DNA of 64,000 bases, taken from Streptomyces roseoverticillatus. Lineage in GTDB: Bacteria; Actinomycetota; Actinomycetes; Streptomycetales; Streptomycetaceae. The stretch's first letter is position 1. The number at the start of each line of letters is the position of its first letter. Shown piece after piece: positions 22,937 to 35,953 of the stretch. The position numbers and the translations under genes were made by a program. Location of the stretch: positions 62,001 to 126,000 of the forward strand of contig NZ_JOFL01000017.1 in NCBI RefSeq assembly GCF_000719265.1, in the 5' to 3' direction. The notes under the pieces were generated by a model, which saw only the letters and a list, made by a program, of their open reading frames with translations, was not told the DNA's origin and ran no database searches.

Positions 22937-24202
22937 ATGAGCTGGTCCGACAGCGCCTTACGGGCGGCCGCGGCGCAGGGCGATTACGGGCGGGTGATCC
23001 GGCTCGTGCGCGAGTCGGTTCGTATGACTCAGGGGCAGCTCGGCGTTGCCTGCGGTCTGTCCCAGTCCGCGGTCTCCCGCATGGAGCAGCGCGGCGCAGG
23101 CGAGTACCACATGACCACCCTTGCCCGGATCTCTCATCATCTCGGCATCCCGCCCCAGTTGGTTGGACTCGCCGAGAAGGGGACAGTGCCGGGCAGGTAC
23201 AAAGACGGAAGCGAAGAAGTGGAGCGGCGCGAATTCTTAGCCGGCGTTGCTGCAGTCGCAGCAGCGCCAGTGATCGGCGCAGATTCGGCCCCACGCGCAG
23301 AGTGGGACGGGGGACAAGCGGCCGTACTCCGGATGGCGACGACCGCGTACCGGCGGATGGACGCGACTGTACCGGCGCGGCAACTTGCCGATACCGTAGC
23401 GGGTCACATGCGCCTTGTTCAGACAGTGGCCAATCAGACGAACGATCAGTCTGTGCGTACCCGCTTGGCGGCTGTAGGGAGCGAGGTGGCAAGCCTCGCC
23501 GGCTGGTTGAGCTGGGACATGGCCGATCAAGGATCAGCGCGCACCTGGTACGGCGCGGCGATCAAGGCAGCCCGGCGCGCCGCGGAACCGCTGTTGATCT
23601 CCTACCAGCAAGGAAGTCTCGCCCAGTTCGAGGTCGAGTACGGCAACTGTGCTCAGGGGCTTTCCCTGATTCGATCAGCAAGACGTCAGCTCGGAGACGC
23701 ATGCCCGCCCATTGCTGCTGCTTGGCTTTCCTCCCTTGAAGCGGTTGCGCACGCGACAGCTGGTGACGAGCGGGCTGCGGATCGCGCGCTCTCGGCAAGC
23801 GGTGTTGAAGCAGCCCGGTTGGCTACGACGGATGCACCACCCTGGCCTTGGGTCTTCTCCTTCGACGAGAGGAAAGTGGCTGCGGCTCGAGTGACCTGCG
23901 GTGCTCGGCTGGGACGCCCCCGGTGGGTGCTCTCCTCGTTGTCCGACGCGACGGCTGCTTTGTCGTCCTGTCATGAGAAGCAGCGCGCGCTGCTGATGCT
24001 GGACGTGGCAAGCGGCCACTTGGCTTCTGGCCAACTGGAAGCGGCTTTCGCTCTCGCTTCGCAGGCGCTGCGGACCGGTTTGCGACTACGCTCCGGGCGT
24101 GTGGCTGAGCGGGCCCGCGCCTTCCGGCGAAACTACTCGTCTGCGACGCCGCCAGCCGTCGTCCGCGAGTTCGATGGACTGCTACGTGACGCTTACCTGT
24201 GA
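22937..24202 (+). CDS. XRE-family regulator with TPR-like C-terminal domain (two TTA codons)
   Basis: This 421-residue protein has an N-terminal Cro/XRE helix-turn-helix (about 18-75; MTQGQLGVACGLSQSAVSRM), the twin-Arg-like link ERREFLAGVAAVAAAPVIG, and a long helical-repeat domain (about 125-415; TWYGAAIKAARRAAEPLLIS, LASGQLEAAFALASQALRTG) resembling TPR/peptide-sensor regulators. The gene contains TTA leucine codons at residue 8 (22958-22960) and residue 101 (23237-23239), so translation should depend on the bldA tRNA and be tied to development. Codon use is less GC-extreme than in its neighbours, suggesting horizontal origin. The SLOG-like gene follows after 12 bp. Confidence 0.85.
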   Translation: MSWSDSALRAAAAQGDYGRVIRLVRESVRMTQGQLGVACGLSQSAVSRMEQRGAGEYHMTTLARISHHLGIPPQLVGLAEKGTVPGRYKDGSEEVERREFLAGVAAVAAAPVIGADSAPRAEWDGGQAAVLRMATTAYRRMDATVPARQLADTVAGHMRLVQTVANQTNDQSVRTRLAAVGSEVASLAGWLSWDMADQGSARTWYGAAIKAARRAAEPLLISYQQGSLAQFEVEYGNCAQGLSLIRSARRQLGDACPPIAAAWLSSLEAVAHATAGDERAADRALSASGVEAARLATTDAPPWPWVFSFDERKVAAARVTCGARLGRPRWVLSSLSDATAALSSCHEKQRALLMLDVASGHLASGQLEAAFALASQALRTGLRLRSGRVAERARAFRRNYSSATPPAVVREFDGLLRDAYL

Positions 24203-26156: not shown

Positions 26157-26993
26157 TCAGCCCTTGACGGCTGCACCGAGGGCGAAGCCGCCGCCGAGGC
26201 GGCGGGCGATCAGGGCGTACATCAGGACCACCGGCGTCGAATACAGGATCGAGAACGCCGCGAGCTGCCCGTACGCCACCTGCCCGAAGTTGCCGAAGAA
26301 CGTGAAGATGCTGACGGACGCCGGGAGCCGCTCGGGGGAGAGCAGCAGCATGAAGGGGACGAAGAAGTTGCCCCACGACAGGGCGAAGCAGTAGATCGCG
26401 ACGACCCCGACGCCCGGCCCCATCAGCGGCAGGATCACCCGCACCAGCGCCTGCATCCGGCTCGCGCCGTCCGTCCAGGCCGCCTCCTCCAGTACGGCCG
26501 GGATGTCGTCCATGAAGTTCTTCATGAGCCAGATGGCAAAGGGGAGTTGGGCGGCGGCCATGAAGAGGGCCGTGCCGTACAGGGTGTCGACGAGCTCGAC
26601 GCGTACGAAGAGCCCGTAGACCGGCACCATGACGGCCGTCACGGGCAGGCAGGTCGTGAACAGCACCCCCAGCAGATACGGCCGGTTCAGCCGGGACCGG
26701 AACCGCGACAGCGGGTACGCCGCGAACGCCGCGCACACGATCGTCACGGCCGTCGCGCCCCCGCAGAGCAGCAGGCTGTTGAGCATGGGCGTGAAGGTGA
26801 TCTCGTCCGTCAGCACCGCGGAGAAGTTCTCCGTCGTCGCCCTCTCAGGTACCTGCACGGCGAGCCCCGCCCCCTCGTCCACGGACGCGAGCAGCAGCCA
26901 GACGAGCGGCACGGCGAAGGCCGCGAGGACGGCGAGCAGCGCGGCGTCGGCGGCCAGCCGCCGGCGGGTGCGGCGGGCGAGGAGCGGGCGCAT
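26157..26993 (-). CDS. Sugar ABC transporter permease (MalG type), apart from its partners
   Basis: This 278-residue inner-membrane permease starts at ATG 26993 with GGAGG upstream; the frame beyond that is not coding. About six membrane helices are visible, plus the EAA loop (EEAAWTDGASRMQALVRVIL-P) that docks on the ATPase. The C-terminal helix pattern is typical of MalG. It has no solute-binding protein, second permease or ATPase next to it. The binding lipoprotein (36791) and a MalF-type permease (38158) lie 10 kb away on the other strand, with no MalG partner there. They probably form one transporter split by rearrangement. Confidence 0.88.
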   Translation of the reverse strand: MRPLLARRTRRRLAADAALLAVLAAFAVPLVWLLLASVDEGAGLAVQVPERATTENFSAVLTDEITFTPMLNSLLLCGGATAVTIVCAAFAAYPLSRFRSRLNRPYLLGVLFTTCLPVTAVMVPVYGLFVRVELVDTLYGTALFMAAAQLPFAIWLMKNFMDDIPAVLEEAAWTDGASRMQALVRVILPLMGPGVGVVAIYCFALSWGNFFVPFMLLLSPERLPASVSIFTFFGNFGQVAYGQLAAFSILYSTPVVLMYALIARRLGGGFALGAAVKG

Positions 26994-27245
26994 GGCACCT
27001 CCGGGCGGGGCGGGGGAGTGCTGGGTTGCGCAGCGAGCGGGCAGGGAAACGGGCCCCTCATTTCGTGAATTCCCGCCCGGGCCCCATCGGACCCCTGTCG
27101 ATCCCTGAAAGCCGGGATTTTCCCGGTTACGCGGTAGGGACCGTTCCGGGACGGATCCGTCGAGGACCGTCGGGCAGAGTTCTCCTGCGTCAAGATCATT
27201 TGGATTCGGTGCGGACCGCGTACCCAAATATTTCGGGGGAAACCT

Positions 27246-27614
27246 ATGAAGATGCGCAGGAAGATCGCCACTGCCGCCGTGACGATGGCCGTGGCCGGGG
27301 CCGGCCTCGTCGCCGGGACCGGGTCGGCGTGGGCCGGGACCAACGGCCAGCAGCTGCAGCTCGACGACGCCTCGGGCATCGCCCGCTCGGTGATGGTCAG
27401 CGGCGAGAACCAGAACGGCCAGTGGACGGACCATTGCTTCAACGTCACCCCGGGCTCGTCCACCCCGCTCAGCGGCTGGTGGTGGAAGGGGAACACGTAC
27501 ATCTCCGTGTCCTCCGGGTCCAACTGCAACGCCGGCTACTTCTACAGCCGGTCGGTCTGGGTGAACCAGAACCAGAGCTGGAGCGACTACCAGGTCGTCT
27601 CGGCCCACCGGTAA
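27246..27614 (+). CDS. Small secreted protein of unknown function
   Basis: This 122-residue precursor starts at ATG 27246 after GGGGGAAA. It has a Sec signal peptide (MKMRRKIATAAVTMAVAGAG, cleavage near SAWA-GT at about residue 30) and a 92-residue mature domain with two cysteines (DHCFNV, SNCNAG) and many Trp, Tyr, Ser and Asn residues (SGWWWKGNTYISVSSGS). The composition suggests a compact beta-sandwich. I do not recognise the family. A 16-bp tandem repeat begins inside its last codons and a terminator follows at 27689-27715. Confidence 0.8.
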   Translation: MKMRRKIATAAVTMAVAGAGLVAGTGSAWAGTNGQQLQLDDASGIARSVMVSGENQNGQWTDHCFNVTPGSSTPLSGWWWKGNTYISVSSGSNCNAGYFYSRSVWVNQNQSWSDYQVVSAHR

Positions 27615-27686
27615 GACGCACGATCGGTAAAACGCGCCACCGGTAGGACGCGTCACCGGTAGGACGCGTCACCGGCAGGACGCGCG
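27607..27686. repeat. Five tandem 16-bp repeats across a stop codon
   Basis: Units at 27607, 27623, 27639, 27655 and 27671 follow the consensus ACCGGTAGGACGCGTC. Units 3 and 4 are identical, and the others differ at 2-4 positions. The first unit includes the stop codon of the secreted protein. The array ends three bases before the terminator stem at 27689. Confidence 0.9.
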
Positions 27687-28116: not shown

Positions 28117-28383
28117 ATGGCTCTCAAGTTCCTGGGGATCTGGCCGAACACCCCGGACGACGGCTCGCCCACGATCTGGCTGGACGACACGACGGGAGAC
28201 TTGATCATCCAGTCATGGAAGGCCGACGAGGCGACCGTCCGTGAGGCCCAGGAGGCCGGGTCGGTGCCCGGTCACTCCACGGAGATCCCGGAGCACGAGA
28301 CCGTGATCCGGTTGCCCGCCAATATGCTCCGGTTCATTCCCCGCCCGGACAGTGAGGTCAACGGTGGCAACAGCGGTACGTGA
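28117..28383 (+). CDS. Small hypothetical protein of an XRE/DUF6879 control module
   Basis: This 88-residue protein starts at ATG 28117 after GAGGAG; upstream start codons at 28063 lack a ribosome site. The sequence has MALKFLGIWPNT, TIWLDDTTGDLIIQSWKADE and HETVIRLPANM, a compact alpha/beta protein that recurs beside DUF6879 genes in Streptomyces. I know this from memory and cannot name the family. Its stop overlaps the DUF6879 start, so the genes are coupled. Confidence 0.75.
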   Translation: MALKFLGIWPNTPDDGSPTIWLDDTTGDLIIQSWKADEATVREAQEAGSVPGHSTEIPEHETVIRLPANMLRFIPRPDSEVNGGNSGT

Positions 28384-28882
28384 AGCCCTCGCGAAGGCGC
28401 AGCGATCAGCGATTCACCTGGAGATGCGAGACGGCTACATGCGGGATGACCCGGAGTTCATCCGCTGGCAGGAGGGGCACCGGTACGACCCGGCCGACCG
28501 CGAGTCGTGGTGGCGTCCTTGGCTCGACGTCGTGGCCGAGGCGACCGGCCGGGGCGTGGTCATGCGGCGGTTGCGGGTGGTTTCCGAGCCGCTCAGCGAC
28601 TACATCCGGTATGAGTACGACGGCACGTTCACGAACGTCGCGGCGGGCGAGGACGTGCGGTGGTTGCCTCGATCGCTGGCACGTGACTTGCTGCTGCCCG
28701 CGCTGGACGGGTGGGTCATGGACGAGGAAACCGTGATCCTGCACCACTTCAGTGGCGAGGGGCAGTGGACCGGCCCCCGCATGGAGCTGTGCCACGAACC
28801 CGCTTTGGCCGCGCAATACGTCAGGGTGTACGAGGCAGCGTGGGAACGGGCCGTTCCCCACGCAGAATACCGGCCTGCCTGA
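28364..28882 (+). CDS. DUF6879 family protein
   Basis: This 172-residue protein is best started at GTG 28364, with TGAGG seven bases upstream; GTG 28352 is possible. The family features are clear: AQRSAIHLEMRDGYM, WWRPWLDVVAEATGRGVVMR, RVVSEPLSDYIRYEYDGTF, GEDVRWLPRSLARDLLLPAL and a C-terminal FSGEGQW. DUF6879 proteins are partners of XRE-DUF5753 regulators in actinomycetes, similar in setting to the DUF397/WhiJ modules. The XRE-DUF5753 gene follows after 10 bp. The biochemical role is unknown. Confidence 0.85.
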   Translation: MATAVREALAKAQRSAIHLEMRDGYMRDDPEFIRWQEGHRYDPADRESWWRPWLDVVAEATGRGVVMRRLRVVSEPLSDYIRYEYDGTFTNVAAGEDVRWLPRSLARDLLLPALDGWVMDEETVILHHFSGEGQWTGPRMELCHEPALAAQYVRVYEAAWERAVPHAEYRPA

Positions 28883-28892
28883 CGGTCGAGCC

Positions 28893-29741
28893 ATGGCTGT
28901 TTCTCCGTCTTCCAGTGCTCAGCAGGCCCGGCAGGCTCTTGCGGATCGTCTCGCGGAGATCTGCCGGGACGCCGGCCTGACCGGTGCCGATATCGCCGAG
29001 CGCTGTGGGTGGAGCCGTTCAAAGTCGTCACGGATCATGAACGCCCGTACGCCCCCGTCCGCTGATGACATTCGGGCGTGGTGCGGGGCGTGCGGGGCCG
29101 AGGACCAGATCGGGGATCTGATTGCCTCGTTGCGCACGGCCGAGGGCATGTGGGTGGGCTGGCGGCGCATGGAGCGGGCCGGACTCAAACAGGCGCAGGA
29201 GGCCCGCCTGCCGTTGTACCAGCGGACCCGTCGTTTCCGGTCGTACTCCTCGTGGCTCGTGCCCGGTCTGATCCAGACGCAGCCGTACACAGCGGCAGCG
29301 CTGCAAGCGATCCAGCGGCGGCGTGGTCTGGTGGACGACGTGGCCGCAGCGGTGGCCGCCCGCATGGAACGTCAGCGAGTGCTGCACGAGGGCGACCGGA
29401 GGTTCGCGTTCCTCGTTGAGGAATCCGTGATCAGGACCGGCATCGGCGGTGCTGAGGTCATGATCGGGCAGCTCGGCCACCTCGTGGCCGTCGCCTCTCT
29501 TCCCCATGTCAGCGTGGGGGTTGTGCCCATGCGGCCGGATCGGGAGCGCTGGCCGGTCGAAGGGTTCTGGATCTACGACACGGCACAGGTCAACATCGAG
29601 TTGGTCTCCGGCTACCTCACGATCACGCAGCCCAGTGAGGTGGCCATGTACGCCGAGACGTTCGCGGAACTGGCCGCTCTGGCCGTCTACGGGGCGAGAG
29701 CCCGCGCGCTGATCACCGACGCCATGGACCGGCTCGGGTGA
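28893..29741 (+). CDS. XRE-DUF5753 (WhiJ-like) transcriptional regulator
   Basis: This 282-residue protein starts at ATG 28893, 10 bp after the DUF6879 stop. The N-terminal helix-turn-helix (about 15-75) has LTGADIAERCGWSRSKSSRI. The C-terminal DUF5753 domain (about 100-280) has the usual YSSWLVPGLIQTQPYTAAAL, RMERQRVLHEGDRRFAFLVE, ASLPHVSVGVVPM and a final VYGARARALI. These regulators act with DUF397 or DUF6879 partners in development and in switching small gene sets. The nearest targets are the peptide and methyltransferase genes downstream. Confidence 0.92.
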   Translation: MAVSPSSSAQQARQALADRLAEICRDAGLTGADIAERCGWSRSKSSRIMNARTPPSADDIRAWCGACGAEDQIGDLIASLRTAEGMWVGWRRMERAGLKQAQEARLPLYQRTRRFRSYSSWLVPGLIQTQPYTAAALQAIQRRRGLVDDVAAAVAARMERQRVLHEGDRRFAFLVEESVIRTGIGGAEVMIGQLGHLVAVASLPHVSVGVVPMRPDRERWPVEGFWIYDTAQVNIELVSGYLTITQPSEVAMYAETFAELAALAVYGARARALITDAMDRLG

Positions 29742-29906
29742 TTGCCGTGCAATCTCGCGCAATCGGCTGGGTTTCGGGATTCCGCTGTCCCTAGCGTGGT
29801 TGCCGTCGGACCGCCGGCGCCGGCGCCTGAACGGCGAGGTGGAGCGGAGACGGGCGCCGGGCGGGTCATACGTGCTGGTCGCAGTGGAACGGGAAGCGAG
29901 GAGACC
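29742..29906 (+). promoter_or_regulatory. Likely promoter/operator region of the RiPP-like pair
   Basis: The 165-bp gap between the XRE-DUF5753 stop and the peptide gene opens with two direct copies of G(T/C)GCAATC (29748-29763) and has a TAGCGT box (29792-29797 region) with ATTCCG upstream. This arrangement resembles promoters placed after XRE-DUF5753 genes. I infer that the regulator binds here; the boxes are weak. Confidence 0.35.
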
Positions 29907-30029
29907 ATGGGCATGGGCATGGGCAAGGGTGGCGATCACTCGGGGAAGCCGGACACCGCACCGCATGACGGGCACCGGGAGAAGCCGCCGCAGGTGCCGC
30001 CGATCATCTCCGACCCCAAGAAGAAGTAG
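29907..30029 (+). CDS. 40-residue peptide, candidate RiPP precursor (imiditide type)
   Basis: The start at ATG 29907 follows AGCGAGGAG. The peptide begins MGMGMGKGGDHSGKP, carries PHDGHREK in the middle, and ends VPPIISDPKKK. It is rich in Lys, His, Pro and Gly, with no Cys, no hydrophobic signal and no lanthipeptide-like Ser/Thr/Cys pattern. It contains one Asp-Gly step (Asp21-Gly22), the sequence most prone to aspartimide formation. A PIMT-like methyltransferase begins 9 bp downstream. A short basic precursor plus a stand-alone PIMT-like enzyme is the definition of imiditide clusters. The assignment is inference. Confidence 0.65.
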   Translation: MGMGMGKGGDHSGKPDTAPHDGHREKPPQVPPIISDPKKK

Positions 30030-30037
30030 AGGCGCGC

Positions 30038-31135
30038 ATGGCCTGGAGCGATCTCGTGGCGTCCTTGGTCAAAGACGGCTATCTGACGGCAAGTTGGGAG
30101 CCCTCATTTGCCGCAGTGCCGCGCCATCCGTTCATCCCGGCCCGGTGCTGGGCGCATGGGGAGGACGGCACCGTGGTGGAAGTGGATCGAGAGACCGGAC
30201 CGCGCGAGTGGGAGGACGCCGTCACCTCCGACGTGGCGTTGGTCCTTGCCAAGGAGGACGGCAAGCCCACCACGTCAGCGTCCATGCCGCGCATGGTGGC
30301 CATGATGCTGCGCGAACTCGACGTGCAGGACGGAGACACGCTGCTGGAGATCGGGACCGGCACGGGCTGGAACTTCGCTCTGGCATCGCACCGGCTCGGT
30401 TCCGGCAGCGTGACGACCATCGAGGTGAACGCCCGCTTCGCAGAGCGCGCGGCAACACGCCTCAAGGCGGCCGGCTTCACTCCGCGCGTCGTTTGGGGCG
30501 ACGGAGCCAAGGGGTGGGAGGCCGATGCCCCCTATCAGCGGCTCATTGCCACGTGCGCCGTACAGCACGTGCCCTACCCCTGGGTGGCGCAGACCGAAGG
30601 CGTGATCGTCGTCCCCTGGGGCAACGGCATGTGCAACGGTGCGTTGCTCCGGCTCGAATCCGACGGACGCACAGCGACGGGCAAGGTCGTCGAAGAGTCG
30701 TCGTTCATGTGGATGAGCGGCCACGCGCCGGCCGAATGGCCCGAATGGCCCGAGGAGCCCGAGGACGAGAAGTCTTCGACGGGTACGGATCCACGAGTGT
30801 TCACCCCGAACGAAGCGCGATTCGCGGTCGGGCTGGGTGTCTCCGGATGCCGGTACAGCGTGGACTGGGGAGACGACCCGGACGGGGCCGACTGCACGCT
30901 GTGGCTCACGGACGGGGAATCCGTCGCCTCGGTCCGGTACATGCCGGAGGGAGCGGCGTTCCCTGTTCAGCAGTCCGGGCCGCGCCGGCTCTGGCACGAA
31001 GCGGAAGCCGCGTACCGCTGGTGGGAGGAGAACGGCCGCCCCGGCTTCGACCGCTTCGGGCTCACCGTGGACGGCGACGGCGAACGGGTCTGGCTCGACT
31101 CCCCGGACAACCCGGTACCGCACCGGAGCGCGTAG
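30038..31135 (+). CDS. PIMT-like protein O-methyltransferase (RiPP aspartimide type)
   Basis: This 365-residue protein has a protein-L-isoaspartate-methyltransferase core (about 20-205): PRHPFIPARCW, the SAM-binding loop LLEIGTGTGWNFALAS, VTTIEVNARFAERAATRLKA, and VVWGDGAKGWEADAPYQRLI. A C-terminal extension of about 160 residues follows and is absent from housekeeping PIMT (about 210-240 residues). Long-tailed PIMT homologues occur in RiPP clusters (fuscimiditide, lanthipeptide OlvS types, imiditides), where they methylate an Asp that then closes to aspartimide. It follows the 40-residue peptide after 9 bp. There is no ATP-grasp or lanthionine synthetase nearby, which favours the imiditide type. 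A terminator follows at 31153-31186. Confidence 0.8.
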   Translation: MAWSDLVASLVKDGYLTASWEPSFAAVPRHPFIPARCWAHGEDGTVVEVDRETGPREWEDAVTSDVALVLAKEDGKPTTSASMPRMVAMMLRELDVQDGDTLLEIGTGTGWNFALASHRLGSGSVTTIEVNARFAERAATRLKAAGFTPRVVWGDGAKGWEADAPYQRLIATCAVQHVPYPWVAQTEGVIVVPWGNGMCNGALLRLESDGRTATGKVVEESSFMWMSGHAPAEWPEWPEEPEDEKSSTGTDPRVFTPNEARFAVGLGVSGCRYSVDWGDDPDGADCTLWLTDGESVASVRYMPEGAAFPVQQSGPRRLWHEAEAAYRWWEENGRPGFDRFGLTVDGDGERVWLDSPDNPVPHRSA

Positions 31136-31152
31136 CCGCGTCCTCCGTCAGT

Positions 31153-31186
31153 CCCGGTCGGCGCTTTCCTCCGAGCGCCGACCGGG
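31153..31186 (+). terminator. Terminator after the PIMT-like gene
   Basis: A perfect 13-bp stem, CCCGGTCGGCGCT (31153-31165) with its complement at 31174-31186, has an 8-nt loop and is followed by GGCTTT. It ends the island operon 17 bp after the methyltransferase stop. Confidence 0.8.
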
Positions 31187-31201
31187 GCTTTGCCGCGCGG
31201 T

Positions 31202-31331
31202 GAGCATGTCACGTCACGACCGCGCTCAAGCCACGACCGCGCTCATGCCACGCAGAATTCGTTGCCCTCCGGGTCCTGCAGGACCACCGCGTAGTGGTCC
31301 GTTCCCGGCTCGTCCAGCACGCGGATCACCG
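31202..31331. repeat. Right flanking direct repeat of the island (130 bp)
   Basis: This copy matches 27938-28050 but carries a 17-bp near-perfect tandem duplication (CACGACCGCGCTCAAGC next to CACGACCGCGCTCATGC, about 31216-31249). It is continuous with the body of the VOC-family gene, so this is the resident side of the junction. Confidence 0.9.
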
Positions 31332-31544
31332 TCCGCGCCCCGCGGGGTCGACGATCGACTCCGGGGTCTCCCCGGCGCCGTCCGCCGGCTCGGCCTCCGG
31401 CACGCCCATGGCCGACCAGTACTCCCGCCACGTGGCGTGGCCCTCCGGCGGGGGCTCGGGGACGTAACCCAGCGCCTGCGTCCAGAAGTCCACCATCCTG
31501 CGCGGGTCCGCGCAGTCGATCGTCAGCTGCAGTGTCGGCTCCAT
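31243..31544 (-). pseudogene. Broken VOC/glyoxalase-family gene
   Basis: The N-terminal part (from ATG 31544) reads MEPTLQLTIDCADPRRMVDF, WTQALGYV and ESIVDPAGRG, then meets a TGA in frame at about 31328. The family's usual C-terminus (TVIRVLDEPGTDHYAVVLQD, then PEGNEFCVA) continues at once in another frame to the stop at 31243-31245. Compared with intact relatives, about 40-45 residues between the two parts are missing. The gene therefore has an internal deletion with frameshift exactly at the edge of the direct repeat (31331/31332). VOC proteins bind a metal and act on small molecules; this copy should be inactive. Confidence 0.85.
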
Positions 31545-31726
31545 GCCCCGCAGCCTGACAGAGGCCTGCGGCCTGACTGGGAGGGGCCTCCGGGACACGG
31601 GGGTCCGGGCTGCTCAGAGGGGTTCGCGCCGGGGCGCTGCCCGGTGCGCGAGGCGGGTAGGCATAGCGCGTGGCGGCGTCCGGGCAAGCCCGTCGGGGGC
31701 TCACGACCGCCGTACGGGGGGCAACC

Positions 31727-32607: not shown

Positions 32608-34005
32608 TCAGGCCGCCACCCCCGCCGCCTCCTTCGGCGGCTCCGGCAGAGAACTGTCCCCGTCTCCGTCCGCGCCCCCGTGCCCGTCCGCCGTCAGCGT
32701 CGTCTCGTCGAACGGTGCCCGCCCGGCAAGGACTTCGCTCACCCGCTCCTTGTCGATCTCCTTCGTCCACGTGCCGACGAGGACGGTCGCGACCGCGTTG
32801 CCCGCGAAGTTCGTCAGCGCCCGCGCCTCGCTCATGAAGCGGTCGATGCCGACGATCAGGCCGACGCCGTCGACGAGTTCGGGGCGGTGGGACTGCAGGC
32901 CGCCCGCGAGCGTGGCGAGGCCCGCGCCGGTGACGCCGGCCGCGCCCTTGGAGGCGACGATCATGAACAGGAGCAGGGAGATCTGCTGGCCCAGGGCGAG
33001 CGGCTCGCCCATCGCCTCGGCGATGAACAGCGACGACATCGTCAGGTAGATCGCCGTGCCGTCGAGGTTGAAGGAGTAGCCGGTGGGCACGGTGATGCCG
33101 ACGACCGGCTTGCTGACCCCCAGGTGCTCCATCTTGGCGATCAGCCGCGGCAGGGCCGACTCCGACGACGACGTCGAGAGGATCAGCAGGAACTCCCGGC
33201 CCAGGTACTTCAGCAGCGCGAAGATGCTGACCCCGGCCACCAGCCGCAGCAGCGTGCCCAGCACCACGATCACGAACAGCAGGCACGTCACGTAGAAGCC
33301 GATCATGATGACGGCGAGGGACTTCAGGGCGTCGGTGCCCGTCGCGCCGACGACCGCCGCCATGGCGCCGAACGCGCCCACCGGCGCCGCCCACATGATC
33401 ATGGCGAGGATGCGGAAGACCAGCTTCTGGATGTGCCCGATGCCGCGCAGCACCGGCTCGCCCGCCGTGCCCATCGCCTGCAGCGCGAAGCCCGCGAGCA
33501 GGGCGACCAGCAGGGTCTGCAGCACCTGGCCGCCGGTGAAGGCGGAGATCATCGTGGTGGGGATGATGCCGAGCAGGAACTGGGTCGTGGACTCGCTGCC
33601 GCCCTTCGCCTGCGCCTCCCCCGCGTGGCGCACCGCGTCCGTCAGGTGCAGCCCGCTGCCGGGCTCCAGGATGTTGCCCACGACGAGGCCGATGGCCAGC
33701 GCGACGGTCGACATGACCAGGAAGTAGCCGAGCGCCAGGCCACCGACCGCGCCGACCTTCGCGGCCTTCCGCACGGAGCCGATGCCGAGCACGATCGTGC
33801 AGAAGATGACCGGCGAGATCATCATCTTGATCAGGTTGACGAAGCCGGTGCCGAGCGGCTTGAGCTCGACCGCGACGCCCGGCGCCGCGAGGCCGACGAC
33901 GATGCCGACGATGACGGCCGCGATCACGGCCAGGTAGAGGTAGTGGGTCCGGTCCGGTCGCCGGGGCGCCCGCCGGGCCGGTGGTGGTGCTGCCTGTGCC
34001 GTCAC
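32608..34005 (-). CDS. dctA: C4-dicarboxylate/proton (sodium) symporter DctA
   Basis: This 465-residue membrane transporter of the DAACS (glutamate/dicarboxylate) family imports succinate, fumarate, malate and perhaps orotate or aspartate. The GTG start at 34005 has GAGGAG upstream. Hallmarks are the serine-rich re-entrant loop LILSTSSSESALPRLIAKME, the NLDGTAIYLTMS motif and ASKGAAGVTGAG. The N-terminal 20 residues and C-terminal 40 residues are charged tails. It is divergent from a CitA/CitB-type two-component system, the class that senses di- and tricarboxylates, which very likely controls it. Confidence 0.93.
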   Translation of the reverse strand: MTAQAAPPPARRAPRRPDRTHYLYLAVIAAVIVGIVVGLAAPGVAVELKPLGTGFVNLIKMMISPVIFCTIVLGIGSVRKAAKVGAVGGLALGYFLVMSTVALAIGLVVGNILEPGSGLHLTDAVRHAGEAQAKGGSESTTQFLLGIIPTTMISAFTGGQVLQTLLVALLAGFALQAMGTAGEPVLRGIGHIQKLVFRILAMIMWAAPVGAFGAMAAVVGATGTDALKSLAVIMIGFYVTCLLFVIVVLGTLLRLVAGVSIFALLKYLGREFLLILSTSSSESALPRLIAKMEHLGVSKPVVGITVPTGYSFNLDGTAIYLTMSSLFIAEAMGEPLALGQQISLLLFMIVASKGAAGVTGAGLATLAGGLQSHRPELVDGVGLIVGIDRFMSEARALTNFAGNAVATVLVGTWTKEIDKERVSEVLAGRAPFDETTLTADGHGGADGDGDSSLPEPPKEAAGVAA

Positions 34006-34249
34006 GGGGGTCTCCTCGTCGTCGCGGCTCTGGGTACGGCTGGGTACGCCTGAGTGCGCCTGCTCAGGTCTGAACAGGCCTGGATGGTTTGTCCACATAG
34101 GTCCGGAGAGGTCTGGATGCGTCCAGGTGTGTTCCGGGTGCCCCGCTCTCCCGACGAGTGGGGCTCCGGCGACTATGCACGGCTCTGTGACCGTGGTCAC
34201 CCTTATGTGCATTACGTTCACGGGAGCGGCCCGGTGCACACTGTCCGCC

Positions 34250-35953
34250 ATGCGCAGACCCCGCCTCCGCCGCCCCCGCAGTCTGGCCGGCCAGCTCTTC
34301 GCGATGCAGATCGTGCTGGTCACCGTCGTGGTGGCCGGCTGCGCGGCCTTCGCGTACGTCGCCGACCGCGGCCAGGCCGAGGAGGCCGCGCGCCGCGAGG
34401 TGACCACGGCGGCCGTCGCCGTGGCCGCGTCCTCCTCCGTCCGGGACGCGGTCCGCTCGCCCGACCCGGCCGCCGGCCTCCAGCCGTACGCCGAGCGCGT
34501 CCGCCGCGACACCGGCGTCGACTTCGTGACGATCATGAATCCGGACGGCATCCGCTGGACCCACCCGGACCCCGCCCGCATAGGCGAGCGCTACCTCGGC
34601 CACACCGGTCCGGCCCTGCGCGGCGAGACGTTCTCCGAGACGTACACGGGCACCCTCGGCCCGTCGGTCCGGGTGGTCGTGCCGGTCATGGACGGCGGCC
34701 GGAGCGTCGCTCTCGTCAGCGCGGGCATCACCGTCGACGCGATCAGCGCCGAGATACGCCGCCAGCTGCTCGGTCTGCTGCTCGTCGCCCTGGGCGCGCT
34801 CGGCCTCGGCGGCGCGGGCACGTACCTCCTCAACGCCCGGCTGCGCCGCCACACCCACGGCATGAACGCCACCGAGCTGAGCCGGATGCACGATTACCAC
34901 GAGGCGACGCTCCATGCCGTCCGTGAGGGCCTGCTGATGCTCGACGGGCAGCACCGTATCGCCCTCATCAACGACGGAGGACGCGAACTCCTCGGCCTCA
35001 CCGAGGAGGTGATGGGCCGTCGGATCGACGCCCTGGGTCTGCCGCCCACCCTCACGGACGCCCTGCTGGCCGCCGAGCCGCGCGTCGACGAGGTCCACGC
35101 GACCGCCGACCGCATCGTCGTCCTCAACACCTCGCCCGTCTCCGGCGGCGAGCGCCACGGCACCGTCGTCACCTTGCGCGACCACACCGAACTCCAGGCG
35201 CTCTCCGGCGAGCTGGACTCCGTGCGCGGCTTCGCCGAGGCGCTGCGCTCGCAGGCGCACGAGGCGGCGAACCGGCTGCACGCCGTGGTGTCCCTGATCG
35301 AGCTGGGGCGCGCGGACGAGGCCGTCGAGTTCGTCACCGCCGAGCTCGAACTCGCCCAGGCCCTCACCGACGAGGTGGTCGGCGCCGTCGCGGAACCCGT
35401 CCTCGCGGCCCTGCTGCTCGGCAAGGCCGCCCAGGCCAACGAGCGCGGCGTCGAGCTCGTCCTCGCGCCCGACACGCACGTGGACGACGGCCTGCTGCCG
35501 CCCCGCCTGCCCGCCCGCGACCTCGTCACCATCCTCGGCAACCTCGTCGACAACGCCGTCGACGCCGCCGCCGAGGAGGCCAACCGCAGCGCGGCGGAGA
35601 TCCGGCACGCGCAGGTCACCGTCACCCTGCGCACGGACGACGCACCCGGCGGCCGCGGCGAGCTGCTGCTGCGTGTCACGGACACCGGGGCGGGCGTGGC
35701 GCCCGAGGCCATGGAGGAGGTGTTCCGGCGCGGCTGGTCGACCAAGTCGCCCGGCAGCGCGCCCCACGGCCGCGGGCTCGGGCTCGCGCTCGTCCGGCAG
35801 GCCGTGCGCCGCAACGGCGGTACGGTCTCCGTCACCGGCTCGCAGGGCGGCGGCGCGGAGTTCACCGTACGGCTCCCCCTGCACGCCACCCACCCCGCCC
35901 ATTCCGCGGACCCGCCGCCGACCCCCGCCGTACGGACCGGAGCGCCCTCATGA
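34250..35953 (+). CDS. CitA/DcuS-type sensor histidine kinase
   Basis: This 567-residue kinase starts at ATG 34250. It has a first membrane helix (about 13-35; LFAMQIVLVTVVVAGCAAFA) and an extracellular single-Cache/PASC domain (about 40-170) with FVTIMNPDGIRWTHPDP and RIGERYLGHTG, the usual dicarboxylate/citrate fold. A second helix (about 176-198), a PAS domain (about 215-320), a DcuS-like phosphoacceptor helix (ALRSQAHEAANRLHAVVSLI) and HATPase_c (NILGNLVDNAVDAA-type N box, DTGAGV, GRGLGLALVRQAV) complete the protein. It overlaps the response regulator by 4 bp. Partner transporter: dctA on the other side of the promoter region. Confidence 0.92.
   Translation: MRRPRLRRPRSLAGQLFAMQIVLVTVVVAGCAAFAYVADRGQAEEAARREVTTAAVAVAASSSVRDAVRSPDPAAGLQPYAERVRRDTGVDFVTIMNPDGIRWTHPDPARIGERYLGHTGPALRGETFSETYTGTLGPSVRVVVPVMDGGRSVALVSAGITVDAISAEIRRQLLGLLLVALGALGLGGAGTYLLNARLRRHTHGMNATELSRMHDYHEATLHAVREGLLMLDGQHRIALINDGGRELLGLTEEVMGRRIDALGLPPTLTDALLAAEPRVDEVHATADRIVVLNTSPVSGGERHGTVVTLRDHTELQALSGELDSVRGFAEALRSQAHEAANRLHAVVSLIELGRADEAVEFVTAELELAQALTDEVVGAVAEPVLAALLLGKAAQANERGVELVLAPDTHVDDGLLPPRLPARDLVTILGNLVDNAVDAAAEEANRSAAEIRHAQVTVTLRTDDAPGGRGELLLRVTDTGAGVAPEAMEEVFRRGWSTKSPGSAPHGRGLGLALVRQAVRRNGGTVSVTGSQGGGAEFTVRLPLHATHPAHSADPPPTPAVRTGAPS

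Follow-up and report, generated by a model that had tools for sequence, protein, structure and literature searches.

Type I pamtides, or imiditides, are the closest described counterparts of the locus considered here. As set out in passages of PMC10787088, the unit consists of two genes, one for a precursor of ~45 aa and one for a methyltransferase, the PAMT, that carries a C-terminal domain; the precursors are rich in Gly (17.3%), Pro (16.8%) and Asp (10.2%), and the published case, SpaA/SpaM, gave mainly unchanged mass. According to part of a later account, 1,414 type I systems have been reported, with precursors that are often unannotated (PMC13001092). Regulators of comparable kinds figure in sections of other papers. 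Those with DUF5753 or DUF397 have been reported in the vicinity of graspetides (PMC13097080, PMC8939145), DUF5753 in groups 11 and 13 of PMC13097080. The XRE protein WhiJ9, which has a BldB-type (DUF397) neighbor, binds direct repeats of 10 bp and mediates the activation of iosA (portions of PMC10294661).

The window, by which we mean the whole 64,000-nt stretch of DNA analysed, sits in a 7.2-Mb assembly and contains a gene pair that probably belongs to this class; it carries every type I sequence feature tested. The precursor gene (29907..30029, +) starts with an ATG immediately 3' of a Shine-Dalgarno-like GAGGAG, and its translation is a 40-aa peptide, MGMGMGKGGDHSGKPDTAPHDGHREKPPQVPPIISDPKKK, with 17.5% Gly, 17.5% Pro, 10.0% Asp and no Cys; it holds a conserved Asp beside a conserved Gly (Asp21-Gly22), the proposed modified Asp21 being codon 29967-29969. 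No Pfam or NCBIfam model matched this peptide at E<=10. Eight nucleotides after its stop begins the gene for the PAMT (30038..31135, +), a PIMT homologue of 365 aa in which about 140 residues (226-365) extend beyond the PIMT domain and which carries a WxxxGxP motif (W329-P335). The two CxxCxGxG motifs of type II pamtides (cysimiditides) are absent from the Cys-free peptide. An original prediction, made from the window alone, had proposed a 40-residue peptide and a PIMT homologue of imiditide type at 29907..31135; its coordinates are correct and its reading is supported, with the gap shortened from 9 bp to 8 nt and the C-terminal extension from 160 residues to about 140. Its statement that it knew of no described family gives way to the type I pamtides/imiditides above, as presented in parts of PMC13001092 on the work of PMC10787088.

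The neighboring ORFs scanned (10, then 8) yielded no ATP-grasp, LanC or other RiPP enzyme, so that the predicted absence of ATP-grasp and lanthionine synthetase holds for those ORFs. The predicted absence of a transporter does not hold literally: the opposite strand carries an ABC permease similar to sugar importers (26160-27656, -) on one side of the locus and a gene of the dicarboxylate symporter family (32611-34581, -) on the other. Neither a protease nor an exporter was recognised.

SpaA-SpaM of Streptomyces sparsogenes and NmaA-NmaM of Nonomuraea maritima have much in common with the pair: two genes; a short, linear, Cys-free precursor rich in Gly, Pro, Asp and Lys; a basic precursor C-terminus; and a PAMT with a C-terminal domain and WxxxGxP. 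The precursor in the window has the core HSGxPDTxxxDGH, whereas in NmaA the modified Asp is followed by His (a passage of PMC13001092). Ten relatives, at 69-76%, of one S. sparsogenes PAMT, P0071, were inspected, a lead that did not identify SpaM: seven have a precursor of another type, with TPDGGPGVPNPPK, upstream, and for the remaining three no ORF of that type was printed upstream.

Is the peptide gene real? A search with the peptide alone in 392 genus-mate genomes gave 11 places at E<1e-3, counting the query locus; each immediately precedes a PIMT homologue, which is broken in one (L039/L097). A profile (A2) built from 11 precursors gave, in the same 392 genomes at E<=1e-3 and with at most 19 candidates scored per genome, 23 places in at least 19 genomes, with the enzyme just downstream in 21; 10 of the 23 are themselves rows of the profile, and among the other 13 the enzyme is present at 11 (two being matching copies in genome G323). 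The two places lacking it, L083 (E 1.3e-5) and L084 (E 5.9e-4), sit in open frames 334 and 253 codons long; both are probably chance matches and are counted here as misses. Co-occurrence of peptide and enzyme, as the original prediction would have it, is thus borne out by both searches.

Streptomyces sp. UNOC14_S4 (L031) has all four genes of the locus, including the two regulatory genes described below, in identical order; its enzyme is 83% identical to that of the window and its peptide 87%. Over 38 shared codons the two peptide genes show 17 base differences, distributed 3/3/11 by codon position, and 8 of the 13 changed codons are synonymous. Judged from these sequence comparisons, the peptide ORF is not a product of chance, and peptide and PAMT form a real two-gene unit. 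At L097 the peptide lacks the usual start codon and the PAMT lies in two frames; the two seem to decay together.

The peptide contains four Asp residues (10, 16, 21 and 36), of which Asp36 is followed by Pro; the translation confirms that the sole Asp-Gly is 21-22. In a profile search of the protein database (E<=10, window included) Asp21-Gly22 is kept in 54 of 54 sequences, a count favored by the search, since Asp-Gly was already invariant in the gathering profile. The conservation that the prediction had looked for at this step is there, and its proposal of Asp21 as the target is strengthened. The column of Asp10 holds Asp in 10/54 and Asn in Streptomyces sp. UNOC14_S4.

Within the same class, the enzyme might act instead on Asp16-Thr17, alone or along with Asp21, which we consider unlikely. 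Asp16 is kept in 53/54 relatives, inside the near-invariant stretch HSGxPDT. Of the two Asp in the lasso-peptide motif DTAD, it is the first that is modified, and Asp16 of the window peptide is likewise followed by Thr. The Asp-Thr step of that motif is described for PAMT-modified lasso peptides in part of PMC10787088. Positions 16-17 across the 54 sequences read DT in 39, DP in 9, DV in 4, and DN and VT in one each. Imide closure requires the backbone N-H of the next residue, and Pro has none. Because Pro follows Asp16 in 9/54, Asp16 cannot be the imide site common to the whole family; it may be a recognition residue instead, and the single relative with Val at position 16 (P0157) retains its Asp-Gly. 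Asp21 is accordingly preferred, with good confidence, as the best candidate for the modified residue; Asp21-Gly22 could serve the whole family.

Two further genes lie upstream on the same strand. The first (28352..28882, +) encodes a DUF6879 protein, 176 aa as read (most of the listed homologues have ~172 aa), with a predicted phospholipase-D/TrmB-like fold, that of the TrmB effector domain, and without the catalytic motif HxKx4D; a full-text search of open-licence literature for DUF6879 found no paper. The second (28893..29741, +) encodes an XRE-family regulator of 282 aa with DUF5753 (PF13560 51.9 bits, PF19054 123.3 bits), its ATG at 28893 having been picked from the sequence in agreement with full-length alignments to relatives. 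The arrangement is not that of an XRE-DUF397 pair, the partner being DUF6879. What is new at this locus is this DUF6879/XRE-DUF5753 module adjoining the peptide-PAMT pair, with a fixed promoter geometry; it is the control element that is newly noticed.

Relatives of the pair were sorted into group A, 12 loci with an HSGxPDT...DGHR peptide (window included), and group B, 9 loci with GKPDxxxxDGHKP. The module adjoins the pair at 10 of the 12 group A loci (in 8 it lies upstream on the same strand, in 1 upstream but on the other strand, and in 1 downstream) and is absent from 2, one of them L097 with its broken enzyme gene. Beside group B loci a DUF6879/XRE pair was found in 0/9; one of these, L100, does have an XRE homologue, a distant one 1.7 kb downstream. 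The notion that the module is exclusive to this peptide was rejected: it also precedes unrelated cargo and other pamtide types. Eight genus-mate loci (L110-L117) carry DUF6879 copies 87-93% identical to that of the window, and in their flanks, up to 1.5 kb, three peptide queries found no match; the DUF6879 of L031, which is linked to a peptide-PAMT pair, is 90% identical. Because each occurs without the other, the peptide-enzyme pair and the module are independent of one another.

Between the XRE gene and the peptide gene lies a tandem direct repeat, TGCAA-N5-CGCAA (29748..29762, +), a putative XRE operator, and beyond it TAGCGT (29792..29797, +), a putative -10 element. All 10 module loci have, upstream of the peptide, a tandem TGCAA-type repeat of 10-bp period that scores 10-11/13 against a consensus set by eye on eight of these sites; the second repeat is followed by a TAG/TAA -10-like hexamer at 34 nt in nine of them and at 33 in one. 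No repeat of that score lies in the 500 nt before the enzyme at the 2 group A loci without the module or at any of the 9 group B loci. In 246 kb of shuffled sequence about 16 sites arise per strand at 10/13 and 1.6 at 11/13; because a score of 10/13 is so common by chance, the score alone is weak, and it is the spacing and the genome-wide pattern that carry the case. The pattern GCAA-N6-GCAA-N29-TARCGT, derived in part from genomes that were afterwards searched with it, has 43 sites in 28 of 101 genomes, and the reversed-pattern control has 0. Its single occurrence in the genome of the window is the site at this locus. Thirty of the 43 sites were inspected: an XRE-DUF5753 homologue stands beside 29, with the XRE alignment ending 9-57 nt before the site in 26 and lying on the other strand in 3; DUF6879 is present at 27/30, and a PAMT lies downstream at 5/30 (window included). 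The repeat is very probably the operator of this XRE family, to judge from that association, and its position just upstream of the promoter suggests that the XRE protein acts here as an activator. That the module controls the pair, as originally predicted, is backed by this conserved arrangement of putative operator and promoter.

Of 40 other DUF6879 loci taken from a longer listing, 22 have a repeat of at least 8/10 together with a -10-like hexamer at 34 nt; the remaining 18 fail the joint criterion, L143 scoring 8 without a hexamer and L177 scoring 7 with the hexamer at 34. A PAMT lies within about 1.2 kb at 5 of the 40, and several others start with small Cys-containing proteins. At L142 the module promoter is separated from a pamtide pair, whose precursor is MGWGTGKGG...SSDTAKP, by a small Cys-rich protein (CPEC...HSKC); L145 shares this type of precursor and has part of a comparable small protein; and small Cys proteins like that of L142 follow the module elsewhere, with no PAMT found nearby. 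At L096 (2160-6128), DUF6879 and XRE come after a group A pair, and after them a second PAMT homologue that no clear precursor precedes.

The nearest described parallel, WhiJ9-BldB9-iosA, also has an XRE-DUF5753-type regulator, a small partner and tandem 10-bp repeats adjoining a small regulated gene (sections of PMC10294661 and PMC10364602). It differs in its partner (DUF397, where the window has DUF6879), in its repeat (CGXXCTCAAC, where the window has a TGCAA type) and in spacing: its repeats lie 113 bp upstream of the start, according to the same sections, whereas the module repeats are 33-34 nt from the -10-like hexamer. Over 29700-31300 a sigma-70 consensus scan reported no promoter and a T-run terminator scan reported nothing; a 13-bp GC-rich inverted repeat after the methyltransferase stop (31153..31186, +), read directly from the sequence and not listed by that scan, is a possible terminator. 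Operator and precursor go unmentioned in the passages of open-licence literature consulted, in a search that did not extend to the repeat sequence itself.

From these arrangements we infer the following course of events. The peptide would be made linear and be bound by the PAMT largely through charge, the enzyme being acidic and the C-terminal tail of the peptide basic. The PAMT would methylate the side chain of Asp21; the methyl ester would close on the backbone nitrogen of Gly22 to give an aspartimide, which would then open, mostly to isoaspartate. The XRE-DUF5753 protein would bind the tandem TGCAA repeats next to the promoter and switch the peptide-PAMT operon, DUF6879 serving as its partner or as a sensor. 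For the role of imiditides/pamtides, a sharp prediction of the modified residue gives one direct handle, a named regulator with a predicted operator offers a possible way to switch on a silent cluster and reveal the effect of the peptide, and the DNA pattern alone flags further small-gene cassettes in the genus.

A second perspective has the peptide stay intracellular, where the XRE-DUF5753/DUF6879 module would read it as a signal, so that the whole would be a self-contained switch. Beyond PAMT, DUF6879 and XRE, no gene family (families clustered, partly annotated) is shared by over 4 of 21 loci; the layout of module, repeat and cargo is that of a single transcription cassette; and DUF6879 has a predicted PLD-like fold, as in the TrmB effector domain, without HxKx4D. 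Against this, the 9 group B loci have peptide and enzyme without the module, and the same module precedes loci with no PAMT found nearby, and we hold such a switch to be improbable. A broader version is just as speculative: module and fixed-geometry promoter would form an exchangeable control cassette that takes in small modified peptides (four precursor types were seen) as well as unrelated small proteins, and an intracellular PAMT-modified peptide, bearing aspartimide or isoaspartate, would be the ligand of DUF6879, as a catalytically dead PLD-like sensor, or of DUF5753, rather than a secreted product.

The enzyme matches PF01135, and its predicted model matches PIMT structures; these fold searches are dominated by the PIMT domain, and for the C-terminal part 1dl5 alone is informative, its match to the model being aligned to residue 356 (rmsd 6.3). 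All scores against PIMT equivalogs are under the cut-offs: 79.5 vs 159.05 bits (TIGR00080), 95.6 vs 188, 90.7 vs 282 and 63.7 vs 359. The match to TIGR04188 (277.4 bits, residues 6-350) is below the cut-off of 380, and the enzyme falls over nearly its full length in the same subfamily as the graspetide methyltransferases of that family (fuscimiditide, amycolimiditide). Unlike the graspimiditides, the locus has no ATP-grasp found near it, its precursor is linear, and the enzyme scores below the family cut-off. The net charge of the C-terminal region (-15) is the lowest of 62 aligned, while that of the whole enzyme (-24) is ordinary, fifth lowest of 62 in a range to -28. The closest named relatives of the enzyme are in Streptomyces, and a scan of the genome contigs with it gave 5 loci. 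PIMT homologues were also present on 49 plasmid records, all below 60% identity.

In a tree of 53 rows from 58 typed loci (left out were L097, under 100 bits; L011, L023 and L098, with a stop in the reading; and L099, a duplicate of L003), precursor type tracks enzyme clade: 10 changes are needed, against a mean of 32.4 in shuffled assignments, and a number as low was reached in 0/200. Membership of the window enzyme in the PYEPPKK group was considered and rejected; window and L031 together form the sister of group B (support 98/95), although the window peptide resembles group A. More distant relatives of the methyltransferase, at 17 of the 58 loci, have no recognised small gene, and several of them come after the apparent end of an ATP-grasp gene. 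The original prediction would have taken any such homologue as a refutation; they exist, and we judge that standard too strict for relatives so distant. A rival in which the enzyme is a protein-repair PIMT of the ordinary sort, with an incidental small ORF beside it, is very hard to credit, for all the PF01135 and PIMT-fold matches, given scores far under the equivalog cut-offs, a RiPP-type C-terminal extension with WxxxGxP, and a conserved peptide that is linked to the enzyme and varies in type with its clade.

Two other features of the surroundings may be recorded. A stretch at 31240-31560 (-), named by its look as glyoxalase/VOC-like, shifts frame near its middle and is either a broken gene or a sequencing slip. 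Farther off, 22937-24202 (+) encodes an NsdA-family regulator (NF053720, 220.8 bits against a cut-off of 75), NsdA being by its NCBIfam name a transcriptional repressor.
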